Shown here piece by piece: positions 5,590-64,000 of a stretch of DNA of 64,000 nt (the first letter of the stretch is position 1; each line of letters starts with the position of its first letter). The notes below the pieces were generated by a model, which worked only from the letters and a program-made list of their open reading frames with translations, was not told where the DNA came from and made no database searches. The position numbers were made by a program, and so were the translations under genes. Origin of the DNA: Coffea arabica (Eukaryota > Streptophyta > Magnoliopsida > Gentianales > Rubiaceae); contig NC_092329.1 of assembly GCF_036785885.1 (NCBI RefSeq), positions 6,820,001 to 6,884,000 on the forward strand, written 5' to 3'.

Positions 5590-7017
5590 AGTGGCGTTGG
5601 GTTCGCATGTTGGAATTGGATTCGGATTCGAAATCATTCATTCTGAATTTGGAATGGAATCAATCATTACAATACATTTATTTGGTTCAGTGCCAAGAAT
5701 GTATATCATTACTATAGTTTATGTTTGGTTCATTGACTCTTTGCAAATGGGATATAAGAAATTTTCACTAATTAAATATATTAGTATAAATGTATTAATA
5801 AATTTAGTATAACTAATTAATAATTTCTATTAGTAAACATGTATAATTATTAGTATAATTAATAATATCAATTATATTACATAGATTAATATATATTATA
5901 TAAAACATATAACTAATAATATTATTATTATAAGTTTGTAACTAATTTAATTAAATATTATATATAATTAAATATAAATATAAAAATGTTATAATATAAA
6001 TATTTAATTATAATTATATAATATATACAAATATTAATTATACTAATATTTTATATAAATATAATATATATTACATATTAAATATAGTTATTATTATATA
6101 TTATTATATTTAAAATAATAATTATTATTATAATTATATAATTTATTAATATTATATACATGTATATATTATAATTATATGCACATATAATATACATTTA
6201 TAAATATACATATATATTATAAATATATTATTATATGATATTAATAAATTTATAATATATATTATATAAATATAATTATATTTAACTAAATAATTATAAT
6301 ATATAACTATATAATATAATAATATCATTATTATAAGTTTGTAACTAATTAAATTAAATATTATATATACAATTAATTATAAATATACAAATGTTATAAT
6401 ATAAATATAAATATATAATTATATAATATATAAATATTAATTATACTAATATTTTATATAAATATAATGTATATTACATATTAAATATAGTTATTATTAT
6501 ATATTATTATATTTTAAAATAATAATTGTAATTATAATTATATAATTTATTAATATTATATACATGTATATATTATAATTATATGCACATATAATATACA
6601 TTTATAAATATACATATATATTATAAATATATTATTATATAATATTAATAAATTTATAATATATATTATATAAATATAATTATATTTAACTAAATAATTA
6701 TAATATATATTTATATAATATACTAATATTATAATAAAATATATAATAAAATATATTATATATATATGTATATATTATAATATAAATATAAAATTATATA
6801 ATATATATAAATATTAATTATACTAAATATTATGTAATTATAAGATTTGGAAATCACACTTGAGTTTTGGACAAAACCCACAAACTTACTAAGAAATGGT
6901 GGAATGCTAAATTTTTAGATATCATTCCAAAATCTCAATTCCGATAGTAGTGAACCAAACATGAATTATGGGTTTATTCCAATTCCCCATTTTGAAACCC
7001 TTTTATCAAACGCCACC
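5590..7017. mobile_element. AT-rich foldback DNA element with terminal inverted repeats
   Basis: The left end begins AGTGGCGTTGGGTTCG and the right end, read on the other strand, begins GGTGGCGTTTGATAA. TAA flanks both ends (5587-5589 and 7018-7020), as expected for PIF/Harbinger-type insertion. Similarity continues inward imperfectly: ATGTTTGGTTC occurs in inverted orientation on both sides of the core. The interior (about 5760-6850) is almost pure A+T and contains a long tandem duplication. No transposase is encoded, so this is a non-autonomous element whose core has expanded, or one invaded by AT-rich sequence. Confidence 0.55.
5912..6840. repeat. AT-rich tandem repeat, ~403-bp unit, two copies plus a partial third
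   Basis: Landmarks recur at a constant spacing: TAAGTTTGTAACTAATT at 5931 and 6334, and TACTAATATTTTATATAAAT at 6041 and 6444, both 403 bp apart. A degraded third start (AAATATTAATTATACTAA) ends near 6827. Between landmarks nearly every base is A or T, with many short palindromes. The repeat sits wholly inside the foldback element at 5590-7017. Confidence 0.8.
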
Positions 7018-7137: not shown

Positions 7138-10100
7138 TTAGCACAATAGATTGGGGTTGACCCACTCTATATCAAAATAATTGCTCAAAGCTTGAGCGCT
7201 AAACAAACAGCTTAGATCATTCTTTTCATATTTTTCTATGCAAAAGGAGCATTTGTAAAACATATTACTTAGCTCGCGGATGTCCTCTATCAGGGTAGCC
7301 AGCCACACGTCTACTTTTTTTTTCCCTGAATTTGCTACAAAAGGTATGTACCAGGAACTCCAATACATACCAGCCTCCAACCTTGTTCCGCCGCTTTGCT
7401 CAAAGCCCACTTTACACCTTCAGCTTCATGTTGAAGTTGGTTTGAGCTTTTGCTTTCCCTCATTTTTCATCATATCACATCCTGCCCTCTATAGTCAGCT
7501 GCTACAATACCATACCCAATGGACTTTGATGCCTTGTTCCACTTGGTTGCTATTCTTATCTACATTCCTACTGTTCTATTGTCTGGGATTTGGCTATCTT
7601 CTTGTTCCTCCATTTGAAATGGTGCTGTTGTTTTTTCAATGCTACAACTCCTAGCCTTTTTTATCCCATCATTGAACTCCATCCATGCATTCCAGGCTTT
7701 GTTGATCACTTGTGTTGGATCATGTGTTTTGTTGTTGAACTCTTTCTCATTCATGCTTTTCCAAATTTGCCAAAGAATATATGTTGTAAGAGATATATGG
7801 TCCAGTCCCTGATCTCTCTGAATTGCTTCGAAAAATGCAGCCCACCAACTGTTGAAATTCTCAGTCAGCTTCTGGATCCCATCCCATTGTACCGGTGCAG
7901 CTTTCCAGATCTCCTTTGCTTTCTTGCATTTCAGCAGTAGATTTTCCAAAGTTTCTAACTCCTCCCCACACCCTGAGCATATAGGGTCTTCTTTTGACAT
8001 TCTTCTCCAGATTAATTCTTTGACTGGAATTGCTTCTTTCAGGCCTTTCCATATGAAGATCTTAACTTTGTGACTGATTCTTAGGCTCCACAGCACTCTC
8101 CACATGTTATTCCTTCTTGGTATATTGCTAGACTCAATCCATTCTCTTCTCCCTCTGCCCTATTGTTCTTTCTTAGCCTAGATTGTCTTGTAGCCAGATT
8201 GCACCGTGTACTCCCCTTTTTGGTTTTCTGTCTAGAAGATGTTGTCCTCTCTTCCTGTGATGCTTATGGGGATCTTGAGAATGTTTTCAGCATCTCCCTG
8301 TTTGAAATTTTTGAAGATGAGATTTCTATTCCACCTGTAGCCTTCTATCAAGTTAGCAACTTTCTGAACTTGGCATTCTTCTGGCTTAGTTGTGACAGGC
8401 CTCCCTAAATGTTGGTTTGAAATCCATTGATCTTTCCAAATTCTTGTTGAAAATCCATTCCCTATCCTTTTCCGTATCCCCCATTGAAGCTCTTCTCTTG
8501 TACTCATAATGCTTTGCCAAAATCATGAGGCATTGTAGGGAGTTTTGTAATCCAGCACACTACAATTTAGGAAGTACTTGCTTTTCAGAATTTTGTTGGA
8601 TAACAGATTTGGATTTTTTATGATTCTCCAAATCTGTTTAGCCAGCAAAGCTCTATTGAAGCTTTGAATTTCCTGGAATCCCATGCCACCTCGTTTTTTC
8701 TCTCTTGTCAACTGTTTCCAAGCTACCCAATGCACCTTATTCTTGTTATTTTTTTCTCCCCACCAAAAATTAGAAAGCATAGAGCTTATCTCTTTGCATA
8801 ACCTACAAGGTAATTTGAAACAAGACATTATGTAAGTAGGCATTGCCATAGACACAGCTTTGATTAGAATTTCTTTCCCAGCTGAACTTAGAAGCTTATT
8901 TTTCCAGCTTAGCATTCTTCTTTTGATGTTATCCTTTGTGTAGTTAAACAGCTGTCCTTTAGACCTTGATATCACCATGGGCAGTCCTAGGTATTTCCCT
9001 TGCAATACTAGTTGAATACCTTCTAGTTCCTCACACACTTCCTCCTTTGTTGTCAAATTCACATTTTTGCTAAAAAACACACTAGATTTGTCTAAGTTAA
9101 CCATCTGACCAGATTCTTGTTCATACATCTCTAGTATCCTCTTCAGCTCCTTTGCTTCTTGAGAGTTGGCTTTGCAGAAAATCAGGGAGTTATCAGCGAA
9201 AAAAAGATGGGTTATTGAGGGACCATGTCTGCTTATCTTTATGCCAGCCATATTCCTTGTTTATGTTGCTCTCTTCAGCAGGCTAGAGAAGCCTTCTAAA
9301 CATATGAGGAATAGATAAGGTGACAGTGGGTCACCTTGTCTTATCCCTCTTTCTGGTACAATGTATTCCGTACGCTCTCTATTGATGTTAAAGAAGAAGG
9401 AGATTGTACTTATGCACTTCATAATCCATGTTATCTATTTGTCACAGAACCCCATTTTTTCCATCATAACTGGCAAAAAATGTCATTCTAATCTATTATA
9501 GGCCTTAGACATGTCAATCTTCACATTCATAAATCCATCCTTACCGTGTCTTTTATTTTTAAGATGATGCAAGTACTCGTGAGAGATAATGACGTTATCA
9601 AGAATATGTCTCCCAGGGATGAAAGCAGATTGATTAATGCTGATGCAATGATGCAAAATTGGTTTGAGTCTATTGACTAGAATTTTGGCAATAACTTTGT
9701 AAATCACACTATAAAGGCTAATGGGTCTGTATTGCTTGATGTTAGTGGGGCAAGGGACCTTTGGGATCAAGGAAATGATGGTATGGTTGATAGCTTTTAG
9801 CATATTACCAGAATGAAAAAAGCTTTTTATAGCATTTACCAGGTCTCCTTTGATTATATCCTAGAATTTTTGAAAAAAAAGGGTGGGACATCCTATATAT
9901 ACCAGGAGCCTTGTTGCTATCCATAGAGAAGATTGCAGATTTGATTTTCTTTTTTGTTACAACTTTAGTTAGATCCTGGTTCATAGCCTCAGATATGGAT
10001 TTTGGGATTTCAGCTAGAATCTCATGATTACTACTCTCGGTTGATTTGGTGAAGAGTTGCCTGTAGTAGTTACCAATTTTATCTCCCAGTTCAGCCTCAT

Positions 10101-11307: not shown

Positions 11308-12811
11308 CTATTTCCATTTCTTGGTCTCCCCCTCTGCTTTTTTTTTCTGAATATGTTCTATGGTCTCAGTGTCTATCATATTTTCATCATCCAATGCCAA
11401 TTTCCTTTTGGTCGTTCCTATTTGGCTCAGACAATTGCCATCAATCTGTTGCAAAACCTTCTTTTCCTTTCCCAATGATATCCTTGTTGTTTTCCTTATT
11501 TTCCTTTCCTGTCTCTGAGGATGTTCTACTTGAGTGCTTTTGCTGCTTTGACTCACAGGTTTGGCATAACCATGTTACTGCTGTCCTCTTGGATAGTTAG
11601 ACCAGATTTTTGCTTTGGTTCTTACAACTCCTTGTCCACCATTACTTCATCATCTTCATTATTTCCTTGAAATTCTGGTTTTTTTGCATCTTTCCATTTC
11701 TTGCAAAAGCTCCATCATCTTGCTACTGCTGGATGGTTGAGCTCCTGCCTGGACTTCCTCATTTATTATTTCCTCCACACTTCCAATACTTGTATGACTT
11801 CCTCCTCTCTCTTCCTTGCTGACCAGAATCTGTACCTGTAGTTCCTCATTCAACTTCCTTGGTATATAGTCCACTTTCTCCTTTGGTTTATTTATTTCCT
11901 TATCGCTTCCTTCCAGATTTTCCTTTTCCCTTGGAGCTGTGGATTCATGTTCCTTTTCCTGCCTTTTTGAGTTTTTCCTCACCAGTTCCTATTTTTCACC
12001 CCCCCAGTATTGCCTTTTGGAAGGAGATTTGTAGTTGTTATTCTCCTTTTGGGGTGAAAATTTCTCAAAATTTACTCTCAACCATGGACCATACTGGTTC
12101 TCTTGCTGACCATTTTCTACTGATATCTTTGACTTACAAGCCTTTACATTATGGCCTATAATCCCACATGTGTAGCAAAAGTCAGGACACCTTTCATATT
12201 TGAATTTAATCCATCTCATTAGTCCATTCATTTTGATAGTCCATTCATTTTGATTGCTGTTCCACGAAGCAATGGATGAAAATGTCAGCCATGACCTGTG
12301 CCTTTAGATGCTTTCCTTCTTTACCTCCATTTTGCGGAATAACTACTTCCCTGACTTCTTTAAACACTGCACCTACTTTCTTCCCTACCTCTTTAGAGAT
12401 TCAATGTAAAGGAAGGTTCCACATTTGAACCCATAGTGGTGCTATTCTGAAGGCATTAGGATCATCCTCAATCCCCTTGTACCACTTACTCAGTACAAGT
12501 ATTTGGTTATCTAAAATCCAAGGCCCTCCATTGACTATCCTTTCTCTAGTTTCCTCCCCCTTAATTCCGAACTGGAAGAAGTTTGGCCCTAGCTCAGTCA
12601 TCTTGAGATCTTTCGGATAACCCAAAACATTTGCCACAAAATTTTTAACCCTAGTAAAATTAGCTATCTTATCTCCCCTGATTCTTCCCAACAGACTGGT
12701 CTGGCATTCCTGCCTGCCTATGCAAACATCTCCTACATCTAGGTCAGTCACACTGTATTCATGGCTATTTAAGGCCAACTTTTGCATAATTTCAGTCAAC
12801 TCTTCCGCCAT
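11308..12811 (-). pseudogene. LINE ORF1 remnant: DUF4283-type gag with CCHC zinc knuckle
   Basis: The start at 12811 gives MAEELTEIMQKLALN, followed by the DUF4283-like fold ending in GPWILDNQILVLSKW and then LWVQMWNLPLH, the usual start of plant LINE and gag-like proteins. After a break, 12231-11989 encodes CYTCGIIGHNVKAC, a CCHC zinc knuckle for nucleic-acid binding. Lys/Glu-rich low-complexity segments follow at 11982-11659 and 11556-11308. Stops between the pieces mean it is not translated as one protein. Its role in an active element would be to coat LINE RNA. Confidence 0.85.
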
Positions 12812-13408
12812 CGTAGTAATATGATATTTAGGTGGAATCCCACTTCTCTGTAGGTATGAACAGGATCTAACCAAATTTATACAGATGAGCACTCAAATCT
12901 ACGTACTTCTACTAGGTAAATGCCTTTCTGGGAGAACAGAAATCAAGTAGACAAAGAAAAAGGAAGAAATAAAGGAGAGCAATAAATGTAATTAATGCAG
13001 AGAAATAGGTTAAGAAAGAAAACCTAAGTGAAACCCTGGCTTTAAGTAAGCATGTATTTATGGCTGCAAATTTCCGTACTATGACGTTCCATCTTCTTAG
13101 TTCCGACCAGCTTGTTTTTAAGATGTCCGAAGCTCCTGGAACCTGGGCAAACTCCTGTTCCGACAGGAATCAGCACTTACTATTGTTCTTGTTTGGAAAT
13201 GCGGACAGATTCACCTTGATTGGTTGCAAAGTATCTAATTGTTTGCTTTTTGTCAGAGACTCTGATTTTGGGTTTTTGAAAGTTTGAAAAAATTTGCAGA
13301 GTTGGAAGGTTTTTGGCTCCCACTATTGGGGGGAAAAGCTCTCCTAGAGAGATAAAGAGCTCTCATAAGAGAGAGAGAGTAAGGTTGGTGTTTCTTGCCT
13401 CTATTGTA

Positions 13409-28543: not shown

Positions 28544-31500
28544 TCAGCTTTGGGTTGAGGACTGCTTTATTAGAGGTTGTGACGTTTTTCCCCACTCCTC
28601 AGGGGTACTCTTGACTTCCATTAGAAGTGCAACAACTTCCTTCATGGTTGGCCTTTCAGCTGGCGATGAATTTACACAGAACATTGCAATCCCCAATGTC
28701 TGAAGCATTTCTTGCACCATTTGGTCCGGTAATCCCTGGAGCTTTGAATCGAGTATTGTTGCAGCTGGTTCAAAGCTTCCCATCTTCTTCTTTACCCACT
28801 CAACAATGTGCATTCCATCTCCAACTTGAGGCTCAATGGCACTCCGACCACTTAAAATTTCAAGCAGAACAACTCCAAAGCTATACACGTCACTCTTCTC
28901 TGTTATGTTGGCAGTGTACCCATATTCTGCAATAATGGAACAAACTTTTGTTGATATTTATTGATGATACTAAAAGAGCAATTCAGAGCCTATTATCTTG
29001 TTCAATAGCACAAGATGAATGGTTATTTGGTAGAACCCAGTTTACCAAATGATGAAAAACACTAAACTTTGATGTAACTTCATAAAATGCTCAAAATAGA
29101 ACACATTCATAAACATCTAAATTCAGCAATTGCGACAGGTAATTAAGCAGAAAGCTATTAAGTACAGGAATAAACTAAAGCTCACTGAGACTTGCCTGGT
29201 GCAATATATCCATAAGATCCTGCTATTCTGGACATAGCTTGCTGGTAATTTGGAGAGCTCATTAGCCTTGCGAGTCCAAAGTCTGCCAAATATGCATCAT
29301 ACTTGGAATCCAGGAGAATGTTATTGCATTTAACATCCCTATGAAGAATTGCTGGAACACAATCATGATGAAGGTAAGCCAGACCTTGGGCTGCTCCGAC
29401 TGCAATTTTGTATCTGGTCTCCCAATCTAAATTCCTATTTGTCTGCAAGAGCTGTTGTAAATTTCCATTCGAAATATAGTTGTATAAGAGCAGCTTAACG
29501 CTCTTATTAGAACAGTAACCAAGAAGCTTCACTATATTTCTGTGCCTAATGTGTCCCAGGATTTGAATCTCTGCAGCAAATGAATCTAGTGGTTCTTCTT
29601 CCTTCTTCGTCTTCCAAAGCTTCTTCACTGCAATCAACTCACCATTTGGCATTTCTGCCTTGTAAACAACTCCTGAACAACCTTTACCAATAATATTTTC
29701 ATCTCTCAGACACTCCAAGATGCTGTCGATGGTAAAGTTGAGCTTCTGAAATGGGATAAAATTCCATGGATAAGAAAAATCCTCTTCCCTTGATGGAGTC
29801 AACATGCCTGAGTGCTTTCTCGACATGTATTTTTGATTCCTCATGACAAGAATCCAAGTAACTACAAGTGCCATCATTACAGTAGTCAGAACTACCGCAA
29901 CTAAAGCTATGGTTTTAGCAGACTTCAACCTGTTTCGTCCACTTAGCCGTGAAGAACAAGTGAAGCCATCATCAGATTCACAAAGGTTTGGGTTCTCAAG
30001 AAAAGAGTTTGAAGTCAGAGTTCTGAAGAATGGTGAGACTGGTATAGGACCTGAGAAATTGTTATATGACACATTCAATGAAGTGAGACTGGTCAGGGAA
30101 CCCAAAATTGTAATCTTTCCATAAAGCATGTTACGAGAAAGATCAAGTGATTGCAGCTGTCTCAAACCAGACATTGTTTCTGGGAGTTCACCACAAAAAT
30201 GATTCGAGCTCAAGTCCAAACTAATTGTTAAGCTTGTTACATAACCAACTTCTGGTGGGATTAAACCAGAGAGGCTGTTGTAGCTCAAGTCAAGAAGTGT
30301 TAATTTCTGCAGATTCCTAACGGACTTTGGGATTGGTCCACTAAGCAGATTGTTATTCAGTATAAGTTTGTTCAGATAACTGAGGTTACCAAAACTTGAA
30401 GGAACCTGCCCAGTGAAGCTGTTTCTACTGAGGTCAAGCTGCTCCAAATTGACAAGCTCACCCAGTTGAGATGGTATTTCACCAGTGAGGTAATTGTTAT
30501 GCACATCCAACAGCTCAAGAACCGTAACGTTAGCAATTTCAGGAGGTAAACCACCAGAGAAATGGTTCATATATAAGTCAAGAAACACAAGATTTTGCAG
30601 CTGTCCAATCTCTTTAGGAATCTGACCAGAAAGCTGATTTTCTCCGAGCCTTAACCGCACTAGAGACTGGCATCTTGCAACACTTCGAGGCACTCCTCCG
30701 ATTAATGAGTTTCCTAGCAACAAAACTTTGCTCAGCTTCTTCAACCCAAAAATCTCCTCTGGTATTATTCCAGTGAGCTTATTCCTCGAGAGGTCAAGAG
30801 CATATAGCTCAGTACAGTTCCCAAAGGAAGCCGGTATGGTTCCTGAAACTGAATTACCCCACAAGAAAAAGCTCTGCAAATATTTCAATTCACCAACTTG
30901 CCAGGGAATTGGACCTGATAATTGGTTCTTATCAAGCTGAAGAGCTGTTAAACTAGAGCAGTTACTCAACTGCCATGGAATTGAACCGGTTAGTGCATTA
31001 TCAGACAAGTGAAGCTGTTCAAGAACCATCAACTTCCCCAGATCAGCTGGAATTTCACCAGACAATTCATTTGTAGAAACATCAAGTATAACGAGTGATG
31101 AACAATTTGAAAGCTCGGCCGGTATAGTTCCTGTCAAAGAATTACCCCAAAGAAGCAAGCTAGTAACCTTCTGCAACTTTCCCAATTGAGGTGGGATTGT
31201 ACCAGTTAGCTTATTCATATGTAAATACAAGTTTCTAAGCTCCGAGCATGACCCGAGCTCAGGGGGCACTGGACCAAACACTTCAGTATCATAAAGGGCT
31301 AAAGTCTGAAGATTGATCAGGTTCCCAAATGTAGGCGGTATAACACCCGAAAGTCCAGTAGCCGCAGCCCCAAACGTTGTGAGATTAGTAAGTAGGCCTA
31401 ACTGTGGAGGAATTTCCCCTGTTAAATGCAGATTTCCCCCAACTCTGAACTGTTGGAGGGATGACAAGGAGCCTAATTGAGCCGGAATGGACCCATTAAG

Positions 31501-32070
31501 GAGATTATCTTGGAGACAGAGGACTTGCAATGAAGAAAGATTAGCAAGGTGTGGTGGGATTCTGCCTGTTAATCTGTTTGAGTTCAAGAAAAGGAATTGA
31601 AGTGAAGTAAGGCTGCCTAGTCCAGGAGGAATAGGCCCAGAAAGAGAGTTGGAAGAGAGGTCTAAAAGGCGAAGATGGGAAAATGCACCATAGGAAGCAG
31701 GGATTAGTCCTGAGATGTTAGTAGAGGAGAGATTCAAAAGCTGCAACGAGGACAAAGAAGAGAGCCCTGTAGGCAAAGAAGAAAGGTTGAGAAATGTGTT
31801 TGGAAGAGAGACTGAAATGACTCTTCCTTGAGGAGAACAAGTTATTCCTTCCCATGAACATGGAGTTGGGCTTGAGGGGTTCCAAGAAGAAAGCACAGAT
31901 GATCTAGACTTGGTAAAAGGGTCAGAAGCTGAGAGAAGAGAAACTAGAGCCTGGCCATCAGGTGAAAGAGAAGTCACTAGTGTTCTAGGACTGACAATGA
32001 AACCATAACAGAAGCAAAAGGCGAAGAAAAACGAAGCTTTTGAGGTCAAAAAATGAACTCTTCTCTCCAT
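28544..32070 (-). CDS. RGI5: LRR receptor kinase, subfamily XI, RGF-peptide receptor (RGI5-like)
   Basis: Two exons, 32070-29196 and 28926-28544, give 1085 residues; an in-frame Met at 32112 would add 14. Order: hydrophobic signal segment (FFFAFCFCYGFIV), N-terminal LRR cap with PCSWEGITC, about 22-24 leucine-rich repeats of the plant LxGxIP type, a TM helix (IALVAVVLTTVMMALVVTWI), then a Ser/Thr kinase. Kinase landmarks are GKGCSGVVYKAE, AVKKLW, HRDVKCNN (RD type), DFGLARL, and GSYGYIAPEYGYT rebuilt across the intron. The ectodomain has FRVGGN, matching the RxGG motif reported for receptors of RGF/GLV root-growth peptides. It would act at the plasma membrane in peptide-controlled root meristem growth. 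Assignment to RGI5 (At1g34110 type) rests on recalled end-to-end similarity. The intron donor is GC, not GT. Confidence 0.92.
29189..29200 (-). other. GC splice donor of the RGI5-like intron
   Basis: The only way to keep the kinase frame is ACCAG|GCAAGT at 29196/29195 joined to TTGCAG|AATATGGG at 28926. That rebuilds APEYGYT, an invariant kinase segment. The flanking bases are an otherwise perfect donor consensus with C instead of T at +2, the classic form of a GC-AG U2 intron. Confidence 0.9.
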
Positions 32071-32112
32071 TTGAGCCCCTGAAAAAACTGGTTTAGCAGT
32101 GATAGTAGTCAA

Positions 32113-33205
32113 GAATATTAATCAAGAATGGGACTAACAGACAAAAAATGGTGGTGAAAGTCCACTCCTCAAGGGAACAGCATGCATGTGAAAGCCTCTA
32201 TTGCTGTAGAATGGGGTGATGAGGTATGCTTCAAACACACACTAGGTGGTGCTGATCAAAAACCATGCATGTGAACAAAAAGTAGTCCTTAATAAAGAAG
32301 CAGCACTATTTCAACTGTTTGATTATTCATGCAGAAGGTAGCATGCTTACCGGAGATAAGTCTCTCCTCCCACGTCCGCCGTTTCTGGCGGTGCAGCCGG
32401 TGAAGGTGCTAGCGCTGGTGGTGGTGCACAGTAAAAACTTATGTCTCAGCTCCTGAAGATTGTAGTACTGGTGTAGCTTTAAAGTTGGCCATTTGGGGTT
32501 TTCTTCTATCTTTTTCCGGCGGTATCCAGGCTAGCTTTCCTGCAGTATTTAGGCTAGCTTTTGCGTGATGGCTGGTTGGAAGTGGTGGTGGAAGGAGGCG
32601 ACTGCCAGAGTTCTAAGCTTATCCTTCTCTTCTTTCTTTCTCGGCGTAACAATTGATTGAGAGTTTCAACTTTCAAGATGAGTGAAGACCAAACGTTGGG
32701 TTTAAATGAAGATAGTTAATTAGGGCGCCAGTGATTAGTTGTTTATATTAAAACTTGAGATGCATCGGATAGCCAAAATTACCCTTTCGAAGTTGCATGG
32801 ATGTACCTAAGTTAATTAAGTTCTGTAAGGAGACTATTGTCATTCCAACCCCCCAAAAAAAAAGTGAGAGAGAGACACTATTGTCAAGCTATTTTTCCTT
32901 TTCATTTTGCACAACATCTTGCAAATCATACATTTTTCCTTTAAAGGGCCATTTTGTTTTTTTTTTTCCCCTGATACTAATTAAAGTTCTTTAGATTCTA
33001 CAAATATGAGTTGAGCGTGCAGAAAACGACCTAAGTTTATTTTGTCAAAGCGCTAATCTTAAGCTAAGTTTTTGTTTCTTATAAATTAGAGTTAACAAGA
33101 ATTCCAAATATAGAATGCAAATATAACTTTTTGTTTCCTAAAAGTACCCTTCTTCAACCATCCAATGCATTAGCAATTTACGAAAATGTTCTCAAAGAAA
33201 CGAGT
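32113..33205. other. RGI5-like promoter region and spacer
   Basis: Upstream of the receptor kinase. A moderately GC-rich block (32340-32650) could be leader or proximal promoter. No gene or clear core promoter element identified. Confidence 0.4.
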
Positions 33206-45020: not shown

Positions 45021-45242
45021 CCCCCGTTTGAAAGGTGAGTTTTTTGGTTGTTCGTCTAAAACTTTACTGTAATTTACTGTAGAAGTTTTTAAAAAAAATT
45101 TTGAAGTGTATTTTTTTTTTATATTTTAAAGTGTATAGTTTAAAAACTTTGAAAAGTTTTTTGAGATTGTTGTGGCTAAAGTTTTTAAAAAACTTATAGC
45201 AGATAAATTTGACAAAAAAATTTGACTTCCAAACAAGGCCCT
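45021..45242 (+). mobile_element. MITE, family A, copy 1
   Basis: Terminal segments CCCCGTTTGAAAGGTGAG and, inverted, GGGCCTTGTTTGGAAGTCAA bracket an AT-rich ~220-bp body with TCTAAAACTTTACTGTA and GGCTAAAGTTTTTAAAAAAC. The same body occurs in opposite orientation at 48936-49145, which makes the family assignment firm. Target duplication not resolved. Confidence 0.7.
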
Positions 45243-47971: not shown

Positions 47972-50900
47972 TCACTGAATTGGAGTCATCTCTGTCGATT
48001 GAGAATCATTTTTCTGACCCTCTATCTCCTCCTTGGACTTTTTATTCTTAATTTCGCCATAAAAGTATGAAACAAATCCCCAAAGAGAGAGGAAAAGAGC
48101 AACTCCCTTTTCTGCTTGAAATTTCTCTTGAAAGACAATAACTGCTATAACTTCGGTGACTGGGAGCAAAACGGCTATCAGAATGGCGGAGAGCAAAGAT
48201 GAAGCACAGAAGATGACTCCAATTGCGCCCAAGAAGAAGAACTGCCAAATTATGGCACTCCAAGTTACGACAAGGTAGTATTCAGCTTCTCCTAGTGCAT
48301 ATGCCCTTGCCTCCCTTGCCATTGCCTGCACAATAATTTATGTAGCAACGACATCAGTCACCAATTGTGATGACATTCGTCAAAGTCAATTGGTCAATTG
48401 GCAAGAAAACAAAAAGAAGAAAAGAAGCTATATATTTTTGGAAAATTCACAGAACCCGAAACTTTTAATCTAAGGATCTCTAATATATATATATAGAAAC
48501 AGGGTCAAAACCACGAATTCTTTTCGCAAGGCAAACATGGCATCATAACTGCACAGAAAAGGTCGAATTCTATGATTGCGTATGGAGCCAATGATTCATA
48601 CTTTCCCCCTTGAAAATAGATGAACGTGGTGGCATGTAGTCCAATGGGCGATTAATTGGATAGGACTAAGTTGTATTTTGATAATCATTTAGAGAAGCCT
48701 GATCATATTCGTATGAAACAGACTCTTTTTTTTAAAAATAAATAAATAAATGTTGTCCTGTATATGGAGCAACGGATAAGTCAATGATTTGTTGTCCCCT
48801 GATTGATAGCTTGCCATGTTTGGTAGTGGCAAACTGGCAATACGTGCATGGGTTGGCACATCTAGAAAAGTGAAAAAACTCGAAGGAGGCTTGATCTAGT
48901 GACAGCGAAATATTAATGTAGGTTCCCATTGATCCATCTTGTTTGGAACCAAGTTTTTTGTCCAGTTTGCCTGCTACAAGTTTTTTAAAAACTTTAGCTA
49001 CAGTAACCTCAAAAAATTTTTCAAAACTTATAAACTGTACACTTCAAAATATTCAAAACTCTACACAGTTCAAAAATTTTTTTAAAAACTTCTACAATAA
49101 AGTTTTAGACAAACTCTCAAAAAACCCACATTTCAAACAGGGCCACTTGTATGCGTCCACTTATAAAAGAAATAACGACGTTACTGAGTAATAGATATAA
49201 ATATAGAAATTATATAAAATCAAGGAGGTGGATTCTATCACTCAAGTCATATTTTACTTACTATAAAATTTCGGTGAAGTATTATTGTCGGCCTTTTATT
49301 TATTTATTCATTTTATTCTATACCAAGTAACAAGCAAGATTATAAAGAAATTTCCGATTGGAAGATGCAGCTTTCTTGGTTAACAACATGATAGTAAGAC
49401 CGACATTAGGATCCATAATGAGGCTTTAGAAAGATACTAGTGATCCAAATAAGAGGGTGGCACTAATATGTTGTCAACTTCAACTTGACCACTTATTTTA
49501 TGAGTGGCGTTCAACCTTTGAAAGTTCAACCTTTTAAAAAGTACTCATTCTACAAGTTGCATGTGGCATGACAAAATGCGGCCTACTTTCTTTAGAGTTT
49601 TCTATCTTTCCATTGATAGAATGCGGCCTACTTTTTTTTTTTTTAGAGTTTTCTTTCCATATAGGTTAGAAAATTCAATTACTCCCTTAATTAATTTCAT
49701 GTTTATCACAAGAAAATGCTCAAAAATTTTAACTTTCCATGAGAGCCAGTCGTTTGCGTGTAAAGTAACTGAACCAGAGAAGTCGAATAAATAGCCACAT
49801 ATGTTTTTCAATTATATATGAATCTTTAATTCATGCATTATCACTGAAAAAAGCTTTACGTAAGTCCCTAAAATTCTTGCAACATGGTACAAGTTACTAT
49901 GATTTGACAACCTCTTCGTACACGTACGTGTTACTTGACTGCATCTAGACATATTTGTATAATTTATAGGGATGATTTCACAAACCTCTCCTAAGGTTTA
50001 TGTCAATTGCAGATTGTACCCTCCACGTTTAAAGAATTACACCTACCTCCCCTTTACCTTATGGTGCAAAATGACAAAAGCAACCTTCATGAATTATTCA
50101 ATTTAACATTTCCATGAAGTGAAGTAATGCGTGTTTAAAATTAAATTTAAAGAATCATTGAAAAAAAAAAAAAGAGCATGAGTAATAGATTCTCTCTAGT
50201 CCTATCCACCCAAATCTCCTCAATCTAATCTTACTTAAATATTGCAATAATGTGGAAAAAAAATTCTAGTTTCCTATAAAAGTAGGTTACTTACTCAGTT
50301 GGAATCCATTTTTTTTTTACAAATTGTCCATGTGAATTTCTTTTATCTAAGAGAAGAAAAATAAATTTGGTAGATAGTTTTCTTAAAGTATGTGGCAATA
50401 TATTAAGTTTAAAATTAGAAAGGAATTTTATTTCTATGGAGAAAAATCCCCTAATGGCAATATAGGATTATCAATGGAGATATTTTGCTTACATTAGCAA
50501 AGTGAGCTCCAAACTATTTTCTAAGGGAGGTTTATGTAATTTTTTAAACCTAAAGGGTACTTCCTGCAATCATCATAAACCTCAAGGGAGGTTTGTAAAA
50601 CTATCCCTAATTTATACGATAAATCCATAAAAGTCATACCTAAAACGTGTCTAGGCATTTTTTTATCATTTTTTTAAGAGATATCATCTTCTAACCACAA
50701 AAATCAAATTATATTCATTATCCAATTATAATCTGTTCAAATCTGTGCCGTCACCGGTCCGACGCTTCTAGTTTTTAGTTTTTACTACCCAACTGTTTTG
50801 ATTGAATCCGTCGTATTCATGACACCAACCAGCCCAAGGCCAGGCCGGCAGACAAGCAATTATCAACTCAAGAAGCCGCCCGTCAGCGATTCTGCATTAT

Positions 50901-51723
50901 TAATTGTGAGTGTGTGTGTGTGTGTGTTTTTTCTTTCACTTTAAATTTTGTTTATTTAATCATATAGTAGTATCTGATAGTGTGGCAAAAAAAAAAAAAA
51001 GAAAGAAGAGCGTACCTGAAAATCCTTATTTGCGATCATTCCAACGGTGCAGAAAACAGTGGCAAAAAGACACATGACCAGCTGAATTTCCAGCACCAAA
51101 GTGTAAGTAATCGCCTGCTTTGCCTTGAGATACATCAGCTCCACCACTGGCAACATGAAGCCGTACAAAACCGCGGCTGCAACCGTCATGAGGAACCCCA
51201 AAACATACATCTTGGTGGACTCACCCTTGGGCCGGTCACTGCTGGCGTGCATAGCCAGAACCCCGGCTCCCACGGTCAGCAAAACGACGGCGTTTACTGA
51301 ATATGCAGTAAACTTCTGCTTGACAAGAAGGAAAGCAAAGACAGCAGTGAAAGCAAGCTGTGAAGCAATGATGATGGCAGAGGTCGAAACGGGGAGCCGA
51401 GCCATTCCGTAGGCGTACAAGTAGTCGTCTATGCCGGTCAGGAGGCCGATGGCGGCGGCGGCAATGAATAGAGGATATTTCATCAATACTAGCTTGGTGT
51501 TTGGCCCTTCAGTTTTGCGGCGGTGGAAATAGGAGATGAGTAGTGGGATGGCAATAATAGGAAATCCTACGGTTTGTAACCAGCTTGAAAGCCAGATTCT
51601 TTTGCCTCCTTTGACGAAGTAGAGACGCATGATTATCGGGCCACCGCAGTTGCCTATGGCGAGAATCAAACAGTTGACAACTAGGAGAGCTTTGCTCAGA
51701 GCGTTGTTGACTTGAGCGTCCAT
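47972..51723 (-). CDS. PUP: Purine permease (PUP family), plasma-membrane purine/cytokinin transporter
   Basis: Two exons, 51723-51016 and 48325-47972, give 353 residues, the usual PUP length. About ten hydrophobic segments are visible, as in the drug/metabolite transporter fold, for example [20 protein letters not shown] near the N-terminus and [19 protein letters not shown] mid-protein. Family signatures include [54 protein letters not shown] and [20 protein letters not shown]. The splice joins NKDFQ to [17 protein letters not shown], which is continuous in the family. PUPs import adenine, cytokinins and in some species alkaloids; the substrate cannot be read from sequence. The 2.69-kb intron hosts at least two MITEs. 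The C-terminal tail is charged and cytosolic. Closest to the PUP1/PUP3 group by impression. Confidence 0.93.
48936..49145 (-). mobile_element. MITE, family A, copy 2, inside the permease intron
   Basis: Reverse-oriented relative of 45021-45242. Read on the minus strand it gives GCCCTGTTTGAAATGTGGG, TCTAAAACTTTATTGTAGAA and GCTAAAGTTTTTAAAAAACT in the same order as copy 1. It ends near CCATCTTGTTTGGAACC on the plus strand. Confidence 0.7.
49969..50607. mobile_element. MULE-type MITE with 9-bp target duplication, in the permease intron
   Basis: Exact 9-bp direct repeats TAATTTATA at 49960-49968 and 50608-50616. Terminal inverted repeats of about 80 bp start GGGATGATTTCACAAACC on the left and, inverted, GGGATAGTTTTACAAACC on the right. 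They continue through a TTTATG..ATTGCAG segment and an AATTACA..CCTCCC segment. The 639-bp element is non-coding. A 9-bp duplication with long terminal repeats points to the Mutator superfamily. Confidence 0.8.
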
Positions 51724-51961
51724 TTCTCCACCTAAACTTGTTTAGATTCCTTTCCTTTGCCTCGAGTCCTGCTACTCCCTAAGGATATGAATTTATACAG
51801 CATAAAAGATGGATGCCTGAAAGGGTTGTTGCGCAAGAATACAAAAATAATTGTGCTGCAATCAAACGGATATTTTCATCTTTGTGTCGTGGATATGGTT
51901 TTATTTATAAATTTCACGTTGTTGAAAAGTGAGAACTTTTGGGGGAGGGGATGAGGCTTGG

Positions 51962-51969: not shown

Positions 51970-52353
51970 GTATAAAAATGGAATACCAGCAAATCTGAGG
52001 ATGAATGGCATGTGCACTCTGTGATGAAAATGACATTAATTATCTTGCATTTATTTTAGGCGATTGAGATGTCATCAATTATTGGTCTCTAGCAGTAAAA
52101 AGGAAGTCAGGTTCAAGCGGTAAAAACTAAAAAGAAGTCCTATGCATGGTAGGCCACAGGCGGTTGGTGATGCCATCGTCGGCATCTAGCGATCACAGAA
52201 TCTTGTCCTCTAATTTATAATTCAAATTCCAGGAAATTTTATAAGATTGAGCAATTCATGAATTAAATTCCAGGTGATCAACTTGCAAAATTACATAATT
52301 GGTTGTCCAGAAGACATATTTCTGAGCCAGCTACTTTATAAAATTGTCATCGA

Positions 52354-53957
52354 GAGAAAATGTAGTTTTGATATCCAAATTTTGACACGTGAGCAGTTTT
52401 AATTTCCAAATTTTGGACAAAAACAAATCCGATACCCAAACTTTCAATATTTGAGTAAATTTAGTACCATTGACGATTTTTTTCCAAAATGCTATCTGAA
52501 AGAGTCATGTGATAGTCGCATGTCCGACAACTATTGCATAAAAAAATTTGCCAAAAAAATGTAAAATATCCTTCTGATACTAAGTACCAAGAAAGATATT
52601 TTAAAAACTTTAGGCTCCGCTTGCATTAGCTGTTTTCGGAGGTATTTTTTAAAAACTTTACTGTACCTTTGTATATGAAAAACTTTTACTGTAGATGTTT
52701 TTGGATTATTTTTAGAGGTATTTAAAAAATATATTTTTGAATATTTTTATAATTTAGAATTTTGTTGAGATTCTTTTTAAATATATACTGGCTCTGTTTC
52801 TATATATTAATGTTTATTTATTTATATATATAATATTTTTATTTCAATTTTGTTTTTTAATATGTATATTATTATATATTTAATATACATATACAAATAT
52901 ATATATATTAATATACATATTATAAAAAAAATTGATATATATTTATATAAATATAAATATATATAGATATAGATATATTTATATTTAAATAAATATATAT
53001 ATAAATATATTTTAAACAAAATATTTATATTTATATATAAAAATATAATATTTATTTCAATTGATATAATATATATTATACATATTAATATACATAATTG
53101 AAATATATTAATATTACTATAATTTATATATATCTTATATTCATAAGTGAAATATAAATATCAAAATATACATATTAATTTATATATTAATTTATATATT
53201 AATTTATATATTATAAAAATATTTGAAATAAAAATATTTATTAATTTATATAAATATATATAAATATATATAATTAAATATATTTATATATTTAAATAAA
53301 TAAATATAAATATATGTAAATATATTTAATTATACATATTTATATTTTGTATTAATATTTATATATAAATATATATTTATTAAACAAAATATATTTTTTG
53401 TATATAATATTTATATATATAAATATTTTTGTATATTAATTTTTGTATTAATATTTATATATTTATTAAACAAAATATATTTTTTGTATATAATATTTAT
53501 ATATAAATATATATATTAATATATTTTTTGTATATTTGGAGTTGTTTTTAAAATATTTGTTTGGATATGGTGTTTTTGAAGTTATTTTTGTAAAATTTTT
53601 ACTGTAGCATTGTAGATGAAAATCAAATTTTTGAAAAACTCTTAAATCCAAACGGAGCATTAATCACTTGCCCAACTCTACTCATCTTATTCCTTTTCTC
53701 CTTCTTTTGCTTCATTTCATCTTTACCTTAGTGTCAGAAAGGTATTTTACGTTTTTGTGGTATTTTTTATACAATATTTGCTAAAAATATGACTATCACG
53801 CTGCTCTCTCAAGTAGTAATTTGGAAAAAAAAATCACTAAGGTTACTAAATGTGTTCAAATATTGAAAGTTTGGGTACCAGATTTGTTTTTATCCAAAGT
53901 TTGGGGGTTAAAACTGCTCACGTGTCAAAATTTAGATATCAAAACTATATTTTTCTC
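52354..53957. mobile_element. Old MULE-type foldback element, related to the one at 60269-61368
   Basis: Left end GAGAAAATGTAGTTTTGATA and inverted right end GAGAAAAATATAGTTTTGAT are joined inward by long inverted arms (for example CAAATTTTGACACGTGAGCA on the left and its counterpart near 53916). Flanks TTGTCATCGA (52344-52353) and TTGTCTTAGA (53958-53967) match at 8 of 10 positions, a decayed 10-bp target duplication. The arm sequence is clearly homologous to the younger palindrome at 60269-61368. The centre is replaced by a nested AT-rich element. Confidence 0.78.
52613..53659. mobile_element. Nested AT-rich element with TTA target duplication
   Basis: Begins GGCTCCGCTTGCATTAGC and, inverted from the right, TGCTCCGTTTGGATTTAAG. 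TTA lies on both sides (52610-52612 and 53660-53662). Subterminal parts match in inverted order (ACTTTTACTGTAGATGTTTTT against the right-hand AATTTTTACTGTAGCATTG region shows the same motif). The inner ~750 bp is almost entirely A+T. It resembles 5590-7017 in design: short inverted ends, three-base duplication, AT core. Confidence 0.62.
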
Positions 53958-54151
53958 TTGTCTTAGACATGCAAATTTATTAACTTGAATAGCACATAAT
54001 TTGTGAGACAAAGAAATAGCGTGCTAAAATGTGAGTTACAAAAAATGAATACATTCAGACGAAAGAATTAATATTCTCCCTGATAATTTTTTTTTATTTG
54101 ATTAATCAAGCGAACAATAATACACCGTGGATCCATAGATTTGGAAATTGA

Positions 54152-58447: not shown

Positions 58448-59474
58448 CGTCGCTTTTTTGGCAGTGAATTACCTACTAAATGGTACCTATTCGTCCAAAA
58501 GATTGTCTGAATACTTGCATTAGTGTTAAGAAACCTTTTGACCAACACAATTCAAGAGACAGTCATAAGTTTGTGGATAAAAATTGCAACTCTAGATCAC
58601 TTTATCAATCTCCTCTATAAAAGGTTAAGTAGAAGGTGGTTTGCTGTAGAAAATCACCGTCCTATTACTTAGAATGCTCTACAAAATCAAGTCACAGTTC
58701 AAGTAGAGTTTATCCTGTTTAGTGCAAAAGTGAAAAGCAAACAAATTTTAAATTATCCTAAAAGATATTTGTCCAAATTCTTTACGCATAACTTCTAGAC
58801 AAATAAAGCATAAAGGAAAGTAATCTAGAATCATGATTTGAAGCCATCATTGTATCTTAAACTTGCTTTTGTTTAGCTATTTTCATTTGTAATATCCCTA
58901 ACAATAATCTGTCAAATATTAATTCATAATGTTGCACTAAATGATCAAGCAACTGCTGTATAGATGATTTACAAGAATTTCACTTGCAATATTGAGACTA
59001 GCCAATTTTTTTGTTGACAAGGGAATCTGTAACCGCTGCTCGAGAGTGTGCATTAGATAAATCCTACCTCATATAATAGCCGGCTAACCATACAAAGGGA
59101 TAAGACGTACTAGGCATGTGCCATACGATGGACAAATGTCTCAGGAGAGACTCAAATTCGGATTGACAAGAAGGCATGCCACCATCTCTGCCAAGAGGCT
59201 AACCAATCTTGATTACGTATAAAATAAACATTAACTTAAGCATCGAGTGGCATATGAATTATTGAAGCACAATTCTTGTCACAATATCCATGTTTTTTCC
59301 TATTTAGCTTGGCTTATTAGATAGATCAAATTGTAATAGAAACATTTTGTTCTGGACGGACCAGTTACCCTTCCTTACCATAATTGTCAGTATTAACAAA
59401 CAAAGCTCTTACACAAACAAAGAACCAGAAAGGAGATACAAGTGTCCCAGGAAAAAAAGTTTTATAATCGAATT
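58448..59474. other. Spacer downstream of BAHD pseudogene
   Basis: AT-rich, no coding frame or transposon ends recognised. The region adjoining 59474 may be the former 3' UTR of the acyltransferase. Confidence 0.45.
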
Positions 59475-60062
59475 TTACAAAGCATCGAGACCATCATTAA
59501 ATATAGAAGTAAAAGCATTCATTTTGGGCTTGAGGAGGGATAGACCAACCTCAACACCTCCATCAGGTTCTCCTCCACCCACAAGAGAAATGCCCCCCGT
59601 ATCCGTATCACTTGAAACAAACTCAAACCTTATAGGCTTTCCCCACCCAAAATCCAAATCGTAATAATTGAACCTTGGTGAGCCAGCCACCGTTACAACT
59701 CTGTCCCAGTTTAAACTCTCAAATTCTTTCGTTTCTGTTTCGGAAGTATTGAAGAGTGCGTCCTTGTCCTTCAATCTCCGATGAATGGCTTCTCGAATTA
59801 ACTCCACTGCAATAGCAAATCCTTATTCTCCAATCAACTTTGCAGTTTTTTCTTTAGTCCTGCATGATGTTAGACAATTTCCAAAGTAGTTGGCAGGTAA
59901 AGGTGGATCCGAACGCCCTCGACAATTAGCAAGGCAAATAAAATGTTCCATTTCTTCTTCATCTGCACGTTCTCCGCTTGGACCATTACATTTTAGTAGA
60001 CATACCCAAACATAGGTACAAATTACTGTGAATGATGATAAATGAACTAAATTTTGCCGTTT
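59475..60062 (-). pseudogene. BAHD acyltransferase (malonyltransferase-like), C-terminal fragment
   Basis: About 195 codons of a BAHD C-terminal half in one continuous frame, broken by a TAA at 59823-59825. Before the stop: VHLSSFTVICTYVWVCLLK and PPLPANYFGNCL. After it: AIAVELIREAIHRRLKD, then LDFGWGKPIRFEFVSSD and an intact C-terminus (MNAFTSIFNDGLDAL). DFGWGKP is the family's structural motif. The catalytic HxxxD half is absent: homology stops near 60062 and unrelated retrotransposon-like DNA follows. Family members transfer acyl groups such as malonyl from CoA to phenolic glycosides in the cytosol. With its active site missing and a nonsense codon, this copy is not functional. Apart from the stop the frame is well preserved, so decay looks recent. 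Confidence 0.88.
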
Positions 60063-60268
60063 TTGCAATCATGGTTCGCCGTCGCGAATCGCAGTTGCGG
60101 TTGTTCCACATCCATTGACAGGTGTCGAACCTGTGTAATAATAATAATAATAAATCTAACTACCACCAAAGCAGTCAATAATTAATTCTAGGTACTGGAG
60201 TAGGGACTCTAAGTGTGCAATGGGTTACTTGATTTACCCTGTTCCCGAAGAGTTTGCTTAATCCAATA

Positions 60269-61368
60269 GAGAAAAATGCAATTTTGGTACCTAAACTTTG
60301 ACGCACGAGCGGTTTTAGTCCCCAAATTTTGGACGAAAACAAATTTGGTACCCGAACTTTCAAATTTTGAGCACATTAAGTACCCTTGACGATTTTTTCC
60401 CAAATTGTTACCGGAAAAAGCCATGTGACTGTCACGTGTCCGGCCAAAATGGAATTAAAAAAGGTCAAAAATGCAGTTTTGGTACCTAAACTTTGACGCA
60501 CGAGCGGTTTTAGTCCCCAAATTTTGGACGAAAACAAATTTGGTACCCGAACTTTCAAATTTTGAGCACATTAAGTACCCTTGACGATTTTTTCCCAAAT
60601 TATTATCGAAAAAAGCCATATGACAGTCACGTGTCCGGCCACAATTGTATAAAAAAAGGCCCAAAAAATATCAAATGCCATTCTAATACTAAGTATTAGA
60701 TTTAAGGACTAATAGCGTAATAAAGAAAAAATCCAAGGACTAAATAACATCACATGAGTCAACAAAACCCAAGAACCGATACAAATGAGCTCCAATTCCA
60801 GTACATTAATCTAAGAATCAAGTCACAAAATTTGTCTGGAATTGGAGCTCATTTGTATCGGTTCTTGGGTTTTGTTGACTCATGTGATGTTATTTAGTCC
60901 TTGGATTTTTTCTTTATTACGCTATTAGTCCTTAAATCTAATACTTAGTATTAGAATGGCATTTGATATTTTTTGGGCCTTTTTTTATACAATTGTGGCC
61001 GGACACGTGACTGTCATATGGCTTTTTTCGATAATAATTTGGGAAAAAATCGTCAAGGGTACTTAATGTGCTCAAAATTTGAAAGTTCAGGTACCAAATT
61101 TGTTTTCGTCCAAAATTTGGGGACTAAAACCGCTCGTGCGTCAAAGTTTAGGTACCAAAACTGCATTTTTGACCTTTTTTTATTCCATTTTGGCCGGACA
61201 CGTGACAGTCACATGGCTTTTTCCGGTAACAATTTGGGAAAAAATCGTCAAGGGTACTTAATGTGCTCAAAATTTGAAAGTTCGGGTACCAAATTTGTTT
61301 TCGTCCAAAATTTGGGGACTAAAACCGCTCGTGCGTCAAAGTTTAGGTACCAAAATTGCATTTTTCTC
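60269..61368. mobile_element. Near-perfect 1.1-kb palindromic MULE-type foldback element
   Basis: Exact 10-bp direct repeats TAATCCAATA flank it (60259-60268 and 61369-61378). The left arm 60269-60800 and right arm 60837-61368 are each 532 bp and inverted copies, with two differences found by eye. The spacer is 36 bp. Ends are GAGAAAAATGCAATTTTGG. Each arm contains a tandem pair of ~195-bp units (starts near 60276 and 60471). No transposase; the open frames are translations of the repeat. A 10-bp duplication with very long terminal repeats fits Mutator-like non-autonomous elements. Confidence 0.9.
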
Positions 61369-61378
61369 TAATCCAATA

Positions 61379-63766
61379 TACCAGAATTAATTAGTTGACA
61401 AACTTTACTAACAAGTAGACAGTGACAAGTAGGGTCGTCTCCTCAGGGACTGGGGATATTTGTCTCTTTGAAGTTCCAATTGACAATGGGAGGTTTTATC
61501 GGAGTAAAACTAAAAATAATTAAGCAATTCAACTAAAAACGAATAATTAACTAGCACGAATGTAGATAGAAATTAAATCAAGAATAGATAAATTCTAGCC
61601 AAAGATACAACTACTCAAACACAGTCCATTCATCCGATTATTGATGCAAGGGAGGTTCACTTAATTTATTAATAGGTTAGTTATAGTCGCTGACGGGCTC
61701 TGACGACTAATTTTTTCTTAATTTATTGATAACCAAGGTACAACCACTGATTATCCCTAACCAAAGAATACTCCTAGGTACGACCGTAGAAATTAATTTT
61801 CCAATTGCATAAAAAACTAGAAAAATCTAACCCCAACCAATAACACGCTACGAGGGTTATTTATATTGGATTGCACGTTTCCCTAGTGTGTAAAAATGCT
61901 AGTTGCCATTAATATTAATCGATTAAACAATTACGGATTTAATTGATTAATTTGACAGGAGATCAATAAGTCACATTGAACATCGGGCCCTTGACATCCA
62001 ATTAACAAAACAATCCCATGAAAATTCAAGTAGAAAACGTGCAAATATTAACAAATTAGAAACGCATGAAAATTAATTAGATTTCACAGATATTCGGGAC
62101 TACGCCGTCGCGTCGATTCTTGACTAGGTGAAAAGCTTAGCCACGCCTCATGAGAAAATCTCCACATAATTTAATTGATTCGCAAGGCATCACGTTTTTC
62201 ACTAAATAATCAAGAAGTGAACGATGTTTCTCCAGTGGGGAATAAAGCCGAACAGTCGGCACGCATGAACAGGAGAAGAAAAGAAAACTAAACTGTATCT
62301 AAACAATGACTAATGCCCTGCTACGTGGTCCCTGCCGAATTGAGAAGAAAAAGTACAAAAACTGAGGCTTTGCCAAATTTCCTCCTTTTTCGTCTTTGAT
62401 TGCTCCTAGGACTCCTAGTACTCAAGACACTCATAATCAGCAAAAAGGAAATGCAATCCGTCTGTATCATCATGTGGGCCAGGTTTGTGGATTATTTGAA
62501 GTCCCCTACGCGTGGAGGAATTTTCTTCAAAAGGTCCCTCCTTTTTAGCCTTTTTCAGTTTCACCTCCTGTAGATAGGTCCAAATACCAAATATAAGTAT
62601 ATGTTAACAATTAAGCAATATTTGGCAAGGACAAAGAGGAAAATTAACATTAAATTTACTAACAATTAACACCCTATCAATTCCCCCCATATCTAAATCA
62701 TGCTTGCCCTCAAACATGAGAACAACAATCAAATACCAAAATTTGACAATGGTTATTGCTCCAACTATCGTATTGCCAAGATACCAAGAAAAATATATAT
62801 CAAGCATCAATGGTCAAGATCCAAGAAACGTCACCCCAGTTAGCTTCTAAACCACTAACTCCTCCAAATTAAGGCAAACTAATCTAGAAAAAGGAATGGT
62901 TGCTCAACATTCATCAGCAAATGGTCCAACTATTAACCAGAATCTCAACATTAAATTCACAAATCGGCAAGTTGACTTTTTCACATACTAACACAATCTT
63001 TACCTTTTTTATCACGTTTTCTATTTTTCTCTTTTTTTTCGATAGTAACAAAAGACTTAGTCTCTAGCTAATTGAGCATTTTGACACGAACTCTAACACT
63101 TGTCAGATGAAGGAGTCCGGTTACTCAACTCCTATCGCTATATAACCACGTATTCATAGCAACTACTATTTTTTTGATTCGAGAATCGACACTTTAGGTG
63201 AAGATCCTCGGTTACTCAGTAGTAACAACTAGCGGAGCAAAGTCAACTTTTATTCACAACCAAATAACACAATAACTCAAAATAATACAGCAAAAACGCA
63301 AAATAGCAGCAGCTAGCCTCATTTCTTCAAACATGGAGAACTAAAGTTAATAACCAGATCAATTCACATGAAAATGCCAACAATCATTCCCTATGCCTAG
63401 AAAAGTTAACCAGAAAGTAGAAGAGTCAAGCAATTACTGATATTCACCAAAGAGATGTTCCTGAACTCAACCACATTAATTTGATACCCTTTTATTACTA
63501 AAACTCGGCAATAGCAGAATTAGAAACAACAACCCAATATCAAAACTTGGTATTCATATAAGAACTAATCACTAAAAAAAATAATAATAATAAATGAAAG
63601 GTAGACGAAAACAAGTTAAAAATAAAAGAAAAACCTCTAGAAACTAAAAACTGAAAAAACTAGCACCATAACTGATCTCCCCCTACACCTAAATGACACA
63701 TTGTTCTCAATGTGACAAATAAACAATAATAGCAAGAAGAAGGGCAACGGGACTTCCCTGAAGTCG
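61379..63766. other. Non-coding body of the retrotransposon-like region
   Basis: No coding frame of note (longest ~70 codons without domains). Composition and phrases such as GACAGTGACAAGTAGGGTCG look like retrotransposon untranslated sequence, continuing the 60071-60268 segment across the MULE insertion. Confidence 0.4.
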
Positions 63767-64000
63767 TCAAAACAGTGGCGGGTTAGGTGGAAATTGAGGA
63801 GCAAGGCCCGCATGGTGCATAAATGCTGTCAAATTCTGCGCCATGTTATGCACGTTGACGTCAATGTGGGTCATCCGAGTCTCTAGTCTCTCAACTCGCA
63901 GCTGGAGCTGGTTCCATTTGTCAGCCCCTTGGGTAGGAAGAGGCAGAGCGGAAGTGCAGTGGTGGCGCATGATAGGTGCAGTTGCCGAAGGGAGAGAGAG
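63767..64000 (-). CDS. Partial ORF, retrotransposon-type coiled-coil and Pro-rich C-terminus
   Basis: Open from the stop at 63767 to the window edge, so the start is outside. The visible part contains LQLRVERLETRMTHIDVNVH, a short heptad-like helix, and ends GLAPQFPPNPPLF. Similar helix plus proline-rich endings occur in ORFs of plant gypsy-type retrotransposons. The role is unknown and it is not considered a host gene. Confidence 0.45.
   Translation of the reverse strand, partial: LSLPSATAPIMRHHCTSALPLPTQGADKWNQLQLRVERLETRMTHIDVNVHNMAQNLTAFMHHAGLAPQFPPNPPLF

Follow-up and report, generated by a model that had tools for sequence, protein, structure and literature searches.

A young 1.1-kb palindrome in plant nuclear DNA as a probable Mutator-like transposon with tandemly duplicated TIRs

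The locus and its surroundings

The window, that is, the whole stretch of 64,000 nucleotides that was analysed, is judged by its genes to be plant nuclear DNA. The following genes and gene pieces have been recognised in it with Pfam:

29182-32121, minus strand, leucine-rich-repeat receptor kinase
47972-48337 and 50956-51741, minus strand, two purine-permease pieces

Several repeats and decayed sequences accompany them. An inverted pair of 108 nt (45115-45222 and 48951-49058), 83% complementary and 3.7 kb apart, lies around and beside a purine-permease piece and perhaps represents the ends, or two copies, of another repeat. Retroelement pieces, apparently broken, are found on the minus strand, with zf-RVT and RVT_1 matches within 7560-9860; the reverse-transcriptase pieces, which we take to be of the LINE type, are three in number, one of them (8523-9260) scoring below the family cut-off. 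A separate DUF4283 match is located at 12401-12892, also on the minus strand, and two head-to-tail copies of an AT-rich unit of ~403 bp, 84-96% alike, occupy 5914-6735. Scans of the window with Rfam, at gathering scores, and for tRNAs both gave 0 matches.

About 200 bp to the left of the palindrome insertion, a broken acyltransferase (Pfam Transferase), presumably of the BAHD type, is found on the minus strand at 59478-60068. Its two pieces, 59478-59822 (profile 322-430 of 434) and 59826-60068 (profile 250-315 of 434), belong to the C-terminal half and lie in one frame, with an in-frame stop between them. An N-terminal half was not seen in the six frames of 59300-64000, which were inspected by eye and few of which were scanned with Pfam.

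Anatomy of the palindrome and of an older relative

The palindrome and a second, diverged element situated 6.3 kb from it are composed of the following features:

52354-53957, older single-unit relative with an AT-rich stretch inside
52344-52353 and 53958-53967, flanking sequences of the relative, TTGTCATCGA and TTGTCTTAGA, respectively
60259-60268, left TSD, TAATCCAATA
60269-61368, whole element, a near-perfect palindrome of 1100 bp
60269-60801, plus strand, left arm, 533 bp (extended TIR)
60269-60271, plus strand, terminal GAG, present at the outer end only (GTC precedes the inner unit)
60272-60466, plus strand, left outer 195-bp unit (external TIR)
60467-60661, plus strand, left inner 195-bp unit (internal TIR), with 11 differences from the left outer unit
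60662-60801, plus strand, inner 140 bp of the left arm
60802-60835, unpaired spacer of 34 nt, the sole unmirrored DNA of the element
60836-61368, minus strand, right arm, 533 bp (extended TIR)
60836-60975, minus strand, inner 140 bp of the right arm, mirroring 60662-60801 with 0 mismatches
60976-61170, minus strand, right inner 195-bp unit, with 11 differences from the right outer unit
61171-61365, minus strand, right outer 195-bp unit
61369-61378, right TSD, TAATCCAATA

By strict mirror comparison the two arms differ at only 2 positions and fill 1066 of the 1100 bp. A repeat search called arms of 535 nt, rounded to 100% complementary, the two extra bases being chance pairs in the flanks. The target duplication (TSD) is exact (10/10) and abuts both tips of the palindrome; it is also the sole pair of identical 10-mers spaced 1110 apart among the 62,880 window positions compared. 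Within each arm, the outer and inner units are ~94% identical (11/195 differences). An earlier, sequence-only reading of the locus had described a near-perfect 1.1-kb palindrome with an exact 10-bp target duplication, arms of 532 bp with about two mismatches, a spacer of 36 bp and a tandem pair of ~195-bp units in each arm: the palindrome, the duplication and the units have all been confirmed, and the lengths of arms and spacer proved right to within 1-2 bases.

When the terminal 23-mer was searched with up to 3 mismatches, four matches were obtained in the window, namely the two outer ends without a mismatch and the starts of the two inner units with 3 mismatches, while none of 100 shuffles gave a match; the ends of the relative at 52354-53957 are too diverged for this search. 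The inner 140 bp of the left arm are similar to the TIR of the relative up to ~60695 (81% over 37 bp), while the other ~106 bp are without a counterpart elsewhere in the window. As these 140 bp are mirrored without a mismatch and resemble the relative only in their first part, the inverted repeat extends into apparently internal sequence. No recognisable protein is encoded by the element: the only ORF of 110 aa or more listed for it, at 60967-61371 (134 aa), gave no match to Pfam.

The relative carries one 195-bp unit at each end, the two being 78.7% identical to each other and 73-79% identical to the units of the palindrome. Its flanks agree at 8 of 10 positions and are read as a decayed 10-bp TSD. 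On account of the single unit per end, the diverged ends and the decayed TSD, it is best regarded as an older member with single TIRs. Inside it, an AT-rich stretch of ~1 kb (52613-53659) has GGCTCCGCTTGCATTAGC at one bound and, partly inverted, ...TAAATCCAAACGGAGCA at the other; it may be a nested MITE of the hAT type, which it resembles, and a clear duplication was not found by eye.

History read from the differences between units

Ten of the 11 differences between outer and inner units are identical in both arms, and left and right outer units differ from each other at 1 position, as do left and right inner units. Each of the two arm mismatches proves to be private when the other units and the relative serve as outgroup: one, in the left outer unit, is an A to T change at 60456, and the other, in the right inner unit, turns the C of a CpG into T (61089 on the plus strand). 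Since 10 of the 11 outer/inner differences are common to both arms, the tandem duplication predates the last event by which the arms were homogenised or copied as a block. The order of events is thus tandem duplication, equalisation of the arms or copying of one into the other, and finally the last two changes. At the 10 shared differences, both ends of the relative match the inner unit in four cases (alignment columns 11, 162, 183 and 199) and the outer unit in two (columns 146 and 157), the two ends of the relative disagreeing with each other at the remaining 4; as the relative sides sometimes with one unit and sometimes with the other, both have changed.

At the divergence found between units, independent evolution of the arms from the tandem duplication onwards should have produced ~30 mismatches, against the 2 that are seen. 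Plant substitution rates are 0.7-1.5 x 10^-8 per site per year, and with these 2/533 mismatches correspond to ~0.13-0.27 million years (Poisson range 0.015-0.97), a figure which strictly dates the last equalisation of the arms and not the insertion. The arms kept alike of the earlier suggestion are supported, in the form of equalisation or block copying after the tandem duplication. Microhomology-guided template switching has been described for metazoan DNA transposons, the matter being left open for plant MULEs in the available text of that work (PMC8277862).

A further trace is seen between outer and inner units, which are near-identical over their first ~135 bp and diverged over the last 60, a pattern which suggests partial outer-inner gene conversion. 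Within the last 60 of the 195 compared columns fall 10 of the 11 differences in the left arm and 9 of the 11 in the right. Of 200,000 random placements, 17 equalled the difference-free run of 125 bp in the left arm, as did 2 of 200,000 draws restricted to positions where the left inner unit and the left end of the relative disagree; in the right arm, the run is interrupted by the private C to T change. The first 135 bp are not simply invariant, since 25-27 of 135 positions differ from the relative (15-27 of 60 in the last part), so that purifying selection is less likely as the sole cause of the agreement. Two Fisher tests against this background of divergence from the relative gave P values of 0.0018 and 0.018, the boundary of the tract (column 138) having been picked after the data were seen. 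Uneven rates account for part of the clustering, because divergence from the relative is likewise faster in those last 60 columns. Partial conversion between outer and inner units is therefore put forward as the better reading of the alignment, albeit an unproven one.

As for the joint of the duplication, the TIR starts with GAGAAAAATGCA, and the relative carries AAAAAAATGTA (left) and AAAAACGTA (right) at the place where its unit ends. What comes after the unit reads, in the relative, AAAAAAATGTAAAATA on the left and AAAAACGTAAAATA on the right, and after the inner unit of the palindrome, AAAAAATATCAAAT. The likeness of these motifs to the TIR start, as found in one relative (52354-53957), suggests that the unit end once resembled its start, as a model of slippage or unequal exchange requires.

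The nature of the element and alternative readings

The palindrome is most likely a recently inserted, non-autonomous Mutator-like transposon (MULE) with tandemly duplicated TIRs. MULEs are characterised by TSDs of 8-11 bp and by long TIRs, of 14-500 bp in one survey and commonly of hundreds of base pairs (PMC6446971); here the TSD is an exact 10 bp and the arms, at 533 bp, lie slightly above the upper bound of that survey. Moreover, 'tandem TIR' has been defined by two TIR pairs which are alike over at least 100 bp, with the TSD on the outside only (Ferguson and Jiang 2012, PMC3310237). The external and internal TIRs of the palindrome are alike over 195 bp (~94%) at both ends, and the TSD adjoins the external and not the internal pair, the bases flanking the latter being mirrored on inspection. 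One diverged relative with the same kind of ends is present in the window. The recent MULE-type insertion with tandem-unit arms which had been proposed from the sequence is supported.

A MULE transposase was not found with Pfam among the 32 window ORFs of at least 110 aa, a set which misses short exons and ORFs running off the window, and so we infer the mobilising enzyme. A second copy of the insertion site in the empty state was not found in the window, where the joined flanks matched only the flanks themselves; exact-pattern scans of contig collections from viruses, bacteria and archaea, in which plants are not represented, gave 0 matches, and four TIR strings had no match in a text search of papers. 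Among other superfamilies, CACTA, PIF/Harbinger and Tc1/mariner elements have TSDs of 2-3 bp, which the 10 bp observed here do not fit.

The observed anatomy, TSD and pattern of common versus private differences would fit the following course. An ancestor with single TIRs of ~230 bp, like 52354-53957, would have undergone a tandem duplication of the TIR, probably by slippage or unequal exchange between an AAAAATG-like TIR start and a similar AAAAAATGTA-like motif at the TIR end. The inverted repeat would then have taken in ~106 bp more of internal sequence, and the arms may have been equalised by arm-to-arm conversion or by one arm being copied, through gap repair or template switching at a fold-back, which would have left the spacer of 34 nt. 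We infer that transposition came after this equalisation: a MULE transposase acting in trans, and recognising the outer, GAG-ended termini, would have moved the palindrome to its present site and created the 10-bp TSD, each arm having presumably acquired one private change since then.

The closest comparison is offered by the tandem-TIR MULEs of tomato. Like types 1 and 2 of that study (PMC3310237), the palindrome has a tandem external and internal TIR at both ends and a TSD on the outside only, and is non-autonomous. The start of the internal TIR is altered in both cases, the inner units being preceded here by GTC and devoid of the terminal GAG; it has been suggested that this start diverges so that cutting happens at the outer end (PMC3310237). 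Furthermore, repeat motifs near the start and the end of the TIR are shared with one tomato family, for which they were proposed as slippage sites; according to the available text of PMC3310237, such motifs are absent in a second family, a TIR tree seemed to contradict the proposal, the question was left open and the origin of duplicated MULE TIRs was called unclear. Amplified copies in the tandem form were reported for 3 of 6 tomato tandem-TIR elements, amplification thus not being obligatory (PMC3310237). Unlike the tomato elements, the palindrome is almost entirely mirrored and its four units are strongly homogenised. It is also shorter, with 1100 bp against 1300-1400 bp; lengths of 1000-1200 bp were held unlikely in tomato, where the TIRs alone exceed 1 kb (PMC3310237), and the smaller size here is due to a unit of just 195 bp and to an interior of which almost nothing is left. 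The element is a young and strongly homogenised example of a kind already described, and its fully palindromic form is not claimed as unreported.

Apart from its origin, the palindrome might act as a source of hairpin RNA: a read-through or internal transcript would form ~530 bp of dsRNA and be diced, silencing family members as Mu killer does in maize. This is considered unlikely. In the fold predicted for the plus strand, with an MFE of about -959 kcal/mol, 531 of 534 pairs join arm to arm, and in that for the minus strand 532 of 541 do so; such folding is a property of any palindrome, and the ~530-bp hairpin foreseen by the sequence-only reading, if transcribed, is trivially true. The silencing of 52354-53957, which had also been envisaged, is not supported: none of the 1080 21-mers of the palindrome and none of its 1077 24-mers matches this relative, the sole one in the window, exactly. 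At up to 1, 2 and 3 mismatches, the numbers rise to 12, 90 and 223 for 21-mers and to 0, 39 and 117 for 24-mers, counts which include both arms and come from windows that are not independent. Judging from these matches, small RNAs from the arms would be unlikely to silence the relative.

The parallel with Mu killer is partial. Both are inverted duplications that include MULE TIRs, Mu killer containing the TIR of MuDR and silencing MuDR (PMC3440606). In Mu killer, however, each half reaches ~1.3 kb into mudrA and silencing activity has been demonstrated (PMC3440606), whereas recognisable transposase sequence is lacking in the palindrome, whose sole listed ORF of at least 110 aa is the one without a Pfam match. 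Silencing by Mu killer has been tied, in the available text of the same source, to short antisense transcripts that arise within the locus; sense read-through transcripts occur in plants that fail to silence, a contribution of hairpins from minor longer transcripts being held possible (PMC3440606). As a silencing locus, the palindrome would matter only if small RNAs were demonstrated.

A related proposal, to which a similarly low probability is given, would make the palindrome a putative self-correcting array of four TIR copies, in which fold-back conversion equalises the arms and transposition spreads them; it would be near-pure transposase-binding DNA and, if transcribed, a Mu killer of its own family. 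If this were true, the four units would record in a single molecule the conversion tracts between outer and inner as well as between left and right TIRs.

Regarding the identity of the element, a transposon of the foldback type that has long composite arms with subrepeats and does not belong to the Mutator superfamily is decidedly unlikely. In foldback elements, such as FARE of Arabidopsis and the foldbacks of Solanum, the long composite arms carry subrepeats and make up most of the element; the palindrome resembles them in that its arms, each with two tandem 195-bp units, fill all of it but the spacer. P and hAT elements usually have TSDs of 7-8 bp, which the 10 bp found here exceed, and the decayed TSD of the relative (8/10 alike) also fits 10 bp. 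Galileo, a relative of the P element, has tandem repeats of ~210 bp in its TIRs, as seen in the F subfamily, where TIR length is variable and some copies have gained length by recruiting extra sequence; it is nevertheless a fly element of the P-element superfamily (PMC3573991). Moreover, 'foldback' is the name of an architecture, and relatives of Mutator occur among the foldbacks, e.g. Tm1 of root-knot nematodes, which shares with the palindrome the long composite arms with subrepeats and has TSDs mostly of 8-10 bp, 9 bp being the most frequent (PMC3169594). Tm1 differs in its subrepeats of ~14 bp and its asymmetric terminal motifs of 7 bp (PMC3169594), whereas the palindrome has symmetric ends and repeats entire units of 195 bp.

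The nested insertion of an element into its own twin, instead of a TIR duplication within one element, would likewise yield outer and inner units, and is very unlikely. The flanks of the inner pair (60457-60466 and 61171-61180) are, by inspection, mirror images and not direct repeats, so that an inner TSD is absent; the inner units lack the terminal GAG, and an exact mirror register between outer and inner units is not what nesting should produce.

Finally, an artefact of sequencing or assembly, either a mirror read or a misassembled repeat, is the least likely reading of all: long palindromes are a known product of some long-read chemistries, but here an exact direct repeat of 10 bp marks the end of the mirror symmetry at both tips, give or take two bases that pair by chance, and a mirror read would not be expected to end at TSDs; moreover, the arms differ at two positions and the ends resemble those of a diverged relative.

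For the preferred reading, that of a tandem-TIR MULE, the youth of the palindrome and the presence of an older single-unit relative so close to it make the joint of the duplication, the differences common to both arms and the conversion-like tract directly readable. If sister copies are found, the palindrome could be a useful case for understanding how the TIRs of MULEs duplicate.
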